Positions 44,106 to 45,218 of a stretch of DNA of 64,000 nt are shown piece after piece. Below the pieces are notes generated by a model, which was not told where the DNA came from, made no database searches, and saw nothing but the letters and a program-made list of their open reading frames with translations. How positions within the stretch are numbered: the first letter of the stretch is position 1; every line of letters starts with the position of its first letter. The stretch covers positions 1,984,001 through 2,048,000 of the forward strand of contig NZ_JABBYJ010000001.1 of NCBI RefSeq assembly GCF_012932565.1, written 5' to 3'. The DNA is from Sneathiella limimaris (GTDB lineage Bacteria > Pseudomonadota > Alphaproteobacteria > Sneathiellales > Sneathiellaceae). The position numbers and the translations under genes are program-made.

Positions 44106-44144
44106 TTTCCCGCTTTATGGAAGAAAATGTGAAAACAATTTCTA

Positions 44145-44172
44145 AACGGTGGTCAAATGATCACCGTTTTTT
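44145..44172 (+). terminator. Intrinsic terminator of guaA
   Basis: ACGGTGGTC pairs with GATCACCGT over 9 bp (one G-T pair) with an AAAT loop and is followed by T6. It begins 40 bases after the guaA stop and overlaps the region just beyond the end of the convergent 56-residue ORF. Confidence 0.85.
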
Positions 44173-44191: not shown

Positions 44192-44362
44192 TCAGTGTTT
44201 CAGCTTTGAAACTTCTGCGGCGCTCAGTTTTTCCCGGATTGATGTGGCGATGTCATGCCAACCATATTGCTTGGCTGCGTGGAAAGCGCGTTCCAACCCA
44301 CATGTTTCAATAAGGTTCTGCGCGATCGCCTGTTTCTCTTTACTCAAAATAATGATGGCCAT
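44192..44362 (-). CDS. Hypothetical 56-residue protein
   Basis: A short frame not recognised as any family. It starts with ATG at 44362 with GGGAGTTAGGATT directly upstream, reads MAIIILSKEKQAIAQNLIETCG and continues with ERAFHAAKQYGWHDIATSIREKLSAAE to a TGA at 44192. The predicted protein is soluble, helical and basic, with no signal peptide. A good ribosome site, sensible amino-acid composition and position at the edge of the guaA terminator support it as a real small gene, though shortness limits confidence. Confidence 0.5.
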   Translation of the reverse strand: MAIIILSKEKQAIAQNLIETCGLERAFHAAKQYGWHDIATSIREKLSAAEVSKLKH

Positions 44363-44487
44363 AATCCTAACTCCCAGCCAAATACGCTAATCTTGCATAT
44401 GCTAACAATAAGATGTGAATTTTAAGTAAACTTGAAACTAGGCGATTTTCAGTTCCGAAAAGTGGCTATTTTTAGATATTAGAAAAT

Positions 44488-44516
44488 TTGCATTTAGTGT
44501 AAAAGTGTGGCATAAT
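44488..44516 (+). promoter_or_regulatory. Sigma70-type promoter of the candidate RNA gene
   Basis: TTGCAT (44488-44493) and CATAAT (44511-44516) are separated by exactly 17 bases, with a TGG just before the -10. TTGCAT is the same -35 used before tRNA-Pro and rpsF in this window. Initiation is expected near 44523. No protein-coding gene follows for more than 600 bases on this strand, so the promoter most simply serves an RNA. Confidence 0.6.
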
Positions 44517-44522
44517 CGCGAG

Positions 44523-44838
44523 GTTGAACAGAAGTCTTTGGAATTCAAAAACATGTTGGAAAACAACGGGTTTTTGCGTTAGGGGTATGGCTTCGTTCAC
44601 TCATAGTGATACCAAGGACATGGTTGCTTAAACCATGCCGATCGAACATCTGATGTCCTGTTATGGACGCCCGGACTATTTAAGTGGGCGCCTTGCTGAA
44701 ACTTAGACCGTCACGTTTCGAAACTGAATGAGGGTTGGTATCGCGGGATTACGAGGAGGTCAGGCGGCTATCGTGTGGGGCCCTTGATGTCAGATAATCT
44801 TTTAACGCCCAGGGAAATCCCCCTCGGACGCAGTTTTT
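44523..44838 (+). ncRNA. Candidate structured noncoding RNA, about 300 nt
   Basis: The stretch after the promoter contains clear helices. CAAAAAC/GTTTTTG (44546-44552 with 44570-44576) encloses GTTG/CAAC. CATGGTT/AACCATG (44619-44625 with 44631-44637) is perfect. CGCCC/GGGCG (44668-44672 with 44686-44690) carries an inner ACT/AGT. GGTAT/ATACC (44584-44588 with 44609-44613) holds an inner CAC/GTG. A long-range helix GCGTT..GGGG with CCCC..GACGC (44576-44585 with about 44818-44831) could close the whole, and T5 follows at about 44834. I could not match it to RNase P, tmRNA, 4.5S RNA or 6S RNA by their conserved motifs. End points are estimates. Confidence 0.45.
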
Positions 44839-44875
44839 AGCGCCCATTTTCATTCACGGATTCTGTCTCCTTCCG

Positions 44876-45055
44876 CTATGCACCTCCAAATAGCGAAAAT
44901 CCGATAGCAGCAATTAATCCAATGATGATCCAGATTGCCAGATTTCGAAAAGCGGCGCTTTTGCCGCTTCGACGGGTATAGTAAAGAAAGCCCGGTGCAA
45001 TGAGAAATAAAACCATAATGAGGGCAACTAGTCTTAAGAGGTCATTTTCCTGCAT
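44876..45055 (-). CDS. Small membrane protein, 59 residues
   Basis: Two predicted transmembrane helices (LVALIMVLFLIAPGFLYY and LAIWIIIGLIAAIGFSLFG) are joined by a basic loop RRSGKSAAFRN. The layout resembles the membrane-anchoring N-terminus of alphaproteobacterial retropepsin-like proteases (TIGR02281 type), but the protease domain is absent and the frame ends cleanly after helix 2. ATG 45055 is chosen because GGAAGAGAAA precedes it; a TTG four codons upstream is weaker. It is divergent from the YfgM-like gene. Function unknown. Confidence 0.6.
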   Translation of the reverse strand: MQENDLLRLVALIMVLFLIAPGFLYYTRRSGKSAAFRNLAIWIIIGLIAAIGFSLFGGA

Positions 45056-45218
45056 TTTCTCTTCCAAATTCTCCCGAAATGGTCAGATGTCATCAAATAT
45101 AAGTATGATCTGCCTAAATACCGCCGGATTTTTCTGCGAATAGTCGGCAACAGCATTTGCGTTCCGGCAGTAGTCAGTTTATTTTATCCCGCAAATTCAA
45201 GACATACTGGAGTTGTTC

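Follow-up and report, generated by a model that had tools for sequence, protein, structure and literature searches.

A predicted ~320-nt structured noncoding RNA gene upstream of yfgM in Sneathiella that matches no catalogued family

The window, a stretch of 64,000 nucleotides of a Sneathiella limimaris contig, holds on its forward strand, at 44478-44846 and 5' of yfgM, a promoter followed by a predicted RNA gene of ~320 nt. The structured noncoding RNA itself was located at 44523..44846 (+) by a covariance model match and by covariation. Downstream of guaA it lies between two small protein genes on the minus strand, both traced by tblastn: sp56 (44192..44362), a conserved 56-aa small protein gene that is divergent from the RNA gene, and sp63 (44876..45067), a conserved gene for a putative 63-aa membrane protein that is convergent with it. 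Searched against Pfam, sp56 gave no match and sp63 only matches below the cut-off. Just 3' of guaA and upstream of the RNA gene, an 11-pair stem followed by a T run forms an intrinsic-terminator-like site (44144..44169, +); one such site was found compared with 1.0 ± 1.2 in shuffles. Positions 44410-44430, between sp56 and the RNA promoter, are conserved (identity 0.70 in a 20-base bin) and are perhaps the promoter of sp56.

The RNA promoter (44478..44516, +) consists of a -35 box TTGCAT at 44488-44493, a spacer of 17 bases and a -10 box CATAAT at 44511-44516, as a sequence-only reading of this DNA had described it, and its -10 box is extended (TGTGG-CATAAT). By pattern alone it is weak, the scan listing TTTGCA-18-CATAAT as one of three sites in the region versus 1.8 ± 1.5 in shuffles. 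Its conservation among relatives, with a mean pairwise identity of 0.71 over 44470-44517 in seven sequences, is not what chance gives. Most homologues carry ATTAG..TTG with a -10 box at the corresponding distance; L042, L051, L055, L056 and L116 have no match to this motif, and what matches it in L045 and L057 is something other than the promoter. Promoters were assigned for all 26 homologues, six of them via hand-written patterns. The element ATTAGAAAA (44478-44486, +), directly 5' of the -35 box, is retained in many Sneathiella species, perhaps as an UP element or as the binding site of a regulator.

We infer the 5' end of the RNA to be 44523, 7 bases past the -10 box, and set the 3' end by the drop in conservation, which extends to ~44845 and then falls: the mean pairwise identity of seven sequences is 0.72 in the tail and 0.25 beyond it. 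The conserved RNA goes ~8 bases further than 44838, where the sequence-only reading had let it end on a T5 (44834-44838). Many relatives have AAATTTGCCGCG instead of this run, it makes no clear terminator, and none was identified for the RNA gene. The same reading had noted the absence of a 60-codon frame, and indeed the ORF listing gives none inside the element; at a limit of 40 aa only two ORFs of 42 aa appear, both over its 5' part. No ORF common to the homologues was seen by eye, and since the longest ORFs vary in strand and place between species, the gene does not look coding.

A plain DNA search of 60 genomes, 24 of them from the genus, found a match only in the genome of origin (1/60). 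Homologues were reached by synteny instead: in congeners, two small minus-strand protein genes (56 and 63 aa) 3' of guaA flank a gap of similar length, and the aligned gaps share a conserved promoter and conserved blocks. The covariance model R1 was built from seven of these congener gap sequences and scores 223.9 bits at the locus in the window, whose sequence is part of the model. R1 detects one clear copy in each of the 24 Sneathiella genomes (24/24), at 40.5-321.6 bits, with secondary matches of at most 16.2 bits; the 17 genomes outside its training set score between 40.5 and 208 bits. A pattern scan of GTDB species returned 24 stretches. Twenty of these match R1, many of them identical to sequences of the 24-genome set; 19 have E ≤ 5.2e-12, and the remaining one, truncated at the locus end, has 3.9e-6, where E-values from the models built here are rough; four stretches were read as chance (L075, L088 and L089 without an R1 match, L083 with 7.5 bits). 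By tblastn, sp63 lies downstream of the RNA on the opposite strand in 24/24 loci and sp56 upstream of it in 17/24 within the flank covered. Downstream yfgM is present in 23/24 loci, the 24th being cut by a contig end.

Folding of the single sequence is marginal by itself for the whole 318 nt (z -1.99, 5/100 shuffles equally good), while the central 143 nt (44603-44745) reach a z of -3.84 with 0/200 shuffles as good. From the comparison of homologues, the RNA would consist of a hairpin domain at its 5' end, a three-way junction in which H3, tipped by H4, meets H1 and H2, a hairpin near the 3' end and a likely pseudoknot. Compensatory changes were counted mainly in two alignments, A5 with 25 sequences (without G024, the sister-genus genome described below) and A7 with 10 sequences of subclade A. 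Alignment A6 contains 24 of the 26 sequences (L049 and L050 left out), and A3 and A8 were not used for counts, L116 being misaligned in A8. The G014 sequence (L004/L057) is too divergent and was excluded from A1-A3, from R1 and from the identity count. At H4 the rows L038, L039, L041 and L085 of A5, and additionally L040 in A7, are shifted by one column and were counted as unpaired.

The 5' hairpin domain (44523..44602, +) is closed by helix H0 and takes in the RNA start and the ~30 bases before H1. Its sequence is little conserved (identity 0.35) and its pairing is retained: in a partner-swap test on 26 sequences, own partners gave a mean of -17.9 kcal/mol versus -11.6 kcal/mol for swapped ones, with 0/10,000 permutations (kinship ignored), and the 10 subclade A sequences alone likewise gave 0/10,000. 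H1 (44607-44615 with 44735-44743, +), which closes the three-way junction, shows compensatory changes in 6/9 pairs of A5, where 23 of the 25 sequences have letters, and is predicted by RNAalifold as well. H2 is a hairpin of GG-a-CATGGT (44616-44624, +) and ACCATGCC (44632-44639) with a bulged A at 44618; 4/7 of its pairs have compensatory changes in the 10 sequences of A7. H3a pairs TCGAA (44642-44646, +) with TTCGA (44717-44721), and 4/5 pairs changed in a compensatory manner in the same 10 sequences. For H3b, GATG (44652-44655, +) with CGTC (44709-44712), compensatory changes occur in 2/4 pairs in A5 and in 0/5 in A7.

The H4 hairpin (44665..44692, +) has the form GG-A-CG(CCC)/(GGG)CG-CC with a bulged A at 44667. 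Its motif GGACGC...GCGCC is conserved in 26/26 homologues, and the helix is too invariant for covariation in A5. The 3' hairpin H8 pairs CGCCCAGGG (44806-44814, +) with CCCT-C-GGACG (44821-44830); in A5 96% of its cells are paired, with little variation. H8 is a second copy of the CG-CC/GG-A-CG module, its CGCCC...GGACG being present in 26/26 homologues, so that a GG-A-CG strand with its bulged A faces CG-CC in both hairpins, and H2 of nine species carries a third copy. The H4 and H8 modules occur together in 0/4000 shuffled sequences, by patterns written after the modules had been seen. The closing helix that had been proposed between 44576-44585 and 44818-44831 is not supported: 44806-44830 forms the hairpin H8 of its own, and on the side of the first strand the bases from ~44589 sit in H0 of the 5' domain instead.

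A long-range pseudoknot is likely between the strand 3' of H4, GCTGAAA (44695-44701, +), and the 3' tail, TTTTAGC (44835-44841), as suggested by covariation and a swap test. In A5, 3/8 of its pairs have compensatory changes and 80.5% of its cells are paired; in A7 just 71% of cells are. Own partners gave -5.8 kcal/mol versus -4.7 kcal/mol for swapped ones, with 0/10,000 permutations (kinship ignored). The pseudoknot is weak in five of the 26 sequences (L034, L035, L038, L041 and L085).

In total, compensatory changes are seen in H1, H2, H3a and H3b and, to a lesser degree, in the pseudoknot, which makes five helices. Over the 32-pair structure including the pseudoknot, 89.9% of the cells of A5 are paired. 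Eleven pairs changed on both sides, with 44 such cells, and 0/500 shuffles reach either number when kinship is ignored; the further pair types in A5 were matched by 5/500 shuffles. In A7, again ignoring kinship, 12 pairs changed on both sides (3/500 shuffles) in 27 cells (0/500), and the 28 further pair types are not above shuffles, 392/500 of which reach this number. RNAalifold, run on A7 without a given structure, returned H1, H2, H3a, H3b, H5 and H8, with 13 of 40 pairs covarying; H4, where five rows are misaligned, was not predicted. The check on conservation and covariation in relatives that the sequence-only reading had proposed, run here by counts, shuffles and RNAalifold, came out in favour of the RNA gene. 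In L051 and L057 the RNA is shortened to ~245-249 nt and most of the junction and of the H5 region is gone, while H4, H8 and the tail are intact, which suggests that much of the architecture is dispensable.

The sole genome outside Sneathiella among 25 genomes of the order, G024, holds a weak-scoring but syntenic homologue, as judged from its sequence. The whole-core model R2 scores 15.5-15.7 bits there (E 0.8 at 15.5 bits), and this sole match has yfgM 1.3 kb further downstream, in the same orientation, a placement with a chance of ~1.6e-4, reckoned afterwards. The tail model R3, which includes the G024 sequence, gives 38.5 bits, with E 1.3e-7 over 83 kb. By eye, H1 (GTGACGGC/GCCGTCAC), H3a (TTCGGATCG/CGATCCGAA), H4 (GGACGCC...GGCGCC) and the tail (GACGCCC...GGACGAGATTT) can be made out, together with a pseudoknot ACGCAAAAAAT/ATTTTTT-c-GCGT, whose 11 pairs are interrupted by a single bulge, and a promoter TTGTCA-17-TAATAT; no H2 was discerned. 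With this copy the RNA is found in 25/25 genomes of the order examined, 24 of them strong and one weak but syntenic. In the surroundings, a 57-aa ORF of G024 (L116:4485-4658) resembles sp63 by eye. Before yfgM, G024 (L116:4996-5550) and G025 (L118:4793-5350) have an ORF of ~185 aa with a CNHCPYV motif, which by eye looks thioredoxin/peroxiredoxin-like.

Samples of 289 and 385 genomes of the class, searched under strict filters that a divergent relative could escape, gave no convincing homologue outside Sneathiellales. R1 over the 289 genomes matched four Sneathiella and, at 15.6-22.4 bits, three others, in which A/T-rich sequence aligns with the model's unstructured 5' part. R3 over the 385 genomes matched five Sneathiella, at 48-62 bits; another 102 matches reached E ≤ 1, led by one of 26.5 bits and E 0.004. 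Of these 102 loci, 15 were rescored with R2, with 13.6 bits at best, and five were inspected as sequence; they were read as chance. In 13 other Alphaproteobacteria, the 3.6 to ~5.5 kb upstream of yfgM contained no homologue, with best scores of 7.7 bits (R2) and 10.4 bits (R3). Plain blastn against plasmid and phage collections gave no match, which says little, as plain blastn also misses the congeners.

The RNA matches no catalogued family and, judged by Rfam 15, would be a new one. Rfam recognised three tRNAs only in the whole window, nothing within the element at E ≤ 10 and nothing at E ≤ 1 in seven congener loci. Four housekeeping RNAs that the sequence-only reading had set aside have their sole matches at other loci of the same genome: 6S RNA at G000:C3:81491-81650 (50.6 bits), alpha tmRNA at G000:C1:1539125-1539429 (269 bits), class A RNase P RNA at G000:C1:1727837-1728210 (327.6 bits) and the small bacterial SRP RNA at G000:C1:1062056-1062146 (56.5 bits); ARAGORN found no tmRNA in the window. 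Open-licence full texts yielded no paper on a Sneathiella noncoding RNA or a Sneathiellales RNA motif; the single paper retrieved for Sneathiella and sRNA concerns oil degradation, and among the matches listed for Sneathiella transcriptome papers none was on Sneathiella RNA by its title or the opening of its abstract. That reading had its promoter and ORF-free gap borne out, in contrast to its closing helix, and its main proposal, an RNA gene of no known class and possibly lineage-specific, agrees with an element that is without an Rfam match, conserved and covarying, and seen only in Sneathiellales.

With its own promoter, no common ORF, a covarying structure (by statistics that ignore phylogeny) and conserved synteny, the locus has the features of a free-standing structured noncoding RNA gene. 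Bacterial RNAs of this kind, free-standing, structured and of unknown function, are already known. As to its role, we lean towards an independent structured RNA of ~320 nt, encoded once per genome near yfgM, belonging to no described family and bound by protein in trans. It would act as a protein-bound structural RNA, that is a scaffold, a decoy or the core of an RNP, because the bulged-A module is invariant and repeated, the fold is mostly kept and no long conserved unpaired segment that could serve as a seed for pairing with mRNAs was seen by eye across both subclades.

This last point also bears on the main rival, a trans-acting sRNA that pairs with mRNAs, probably assisted by a chaperone, and uses its long structure for stability and for presenting a short seed. 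A single intergenic gene with its own promoter would suit such an sRNA, and a chaperone or a target might attach to the A/U-rich strand that precedes H4, which in many species of subclade B reads AATTTTTA or similarly. Pairing sRNAs are, however, rarely ~320 nt long with a multi-helix pseudoknotted core, and a conserved core of this kind, with no long seed visible by eye, makes this role unlikely, if still worth weighing.

An action in cis, as the leader of the yfgM transcript or as antisense control of the convergent sp63, appears improbable. The order of genes invites it, with the RNA upstream of sp63 in every locus and of yfgM in all but the contig-cut one. As sp63 intervenes on the other strand, before yfgM in the 23 loci with yfgM, and a terminator-like site follows guaA, the RNA is not a simple yfgM leader, and the arrangement differs from that of a riboswitch or cis leader. 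Moreover, the distance from the RNA start to yfgM varies from 556 to 1100 bases across loci, the sister genus has a 184-aa ORF between the two, and antisense action needs no such covarying fold. Similarly improbable is a very divergent member of a known family that the Rfam models missed: covariance models can miss such members, as R2 nearly did in G024, but the element and its congeners stayed without a match at the permissive thresholds given above, and 6S RNA, tmRNA, RNase P RNA and SRP RNA each have a locus elsewhere. That there is no RNA gene here and the locus is a decayed gene or a DNA element, as the marginal folding of the whole sequence might suggest, is highly improbable given the compensatory changes and the conserved promoter.

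Among known systems, the RNA described here resembles 6S RNA (RF00013) in being a single-copy, free-standing, promoter-driven structured bacterial RNA; 6S RNA has the shape of one long bubbled hairpin, whereas the present RNA is built around a three-way junction, with a likely pseudoknot. With the sequestering RNAs of the CsrB/RsmZ type it shares a repeated module resembling a protein site and several GGA triplets, but its invariant GGA triplets are in helices and not in loops. A decoy of this type was rejected, as none of 25 genomes of the order, of which 18 are 90% complete or better, matches CsrA (PF02599); as a control, PF02599 matched in 3/14 known genomes including E. coli. OLE, GOLLD, ROOL and raiA are large orphan structured RNAs, and like them the present RNA has a long, complex and conserved fold and no base-pairing target known at discovery; it differs in lacking any Rfam match, in occurring only in Sneathiellales and in being chromosomal and syntenic. 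Finally, the A-rich pseudoknot strand is flanked in many species by two U-rich strands, one preceding H4 and one in the tail, as in the U-A-U triplex pseudoknots of telomerase RNA and ENE type. Speculatively, this arrangement would allow a U-A-U triplex, but in contrast to those pseudoknots several species, for example G024 (L116) and L034, have only a poor version of the first U-rich strand.

More tentatively, the RNA may be the founding member of a new class: a large housekeeping-like RNA that would form the core or scaffold of an RNP, with a pseudoknot tail that clamps an A-rich strand, perhaps in a U-A-U triplex, and with two identical bulged-A protein sites. It would be kept in every genome of the order and serve a process for which other Alphaproteobacteria need no such RNA or use an unrecognisably divergent one. 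Several Sneathiella species are named isolates, so that expression, deletion and pull-down work should be feasible. That plain DNA search missed the RNA even within its genus, and that it surfaced only via synteny combined with covariance models, suggests that further structured RNAs confined to one lineage may be overlooked likewise.
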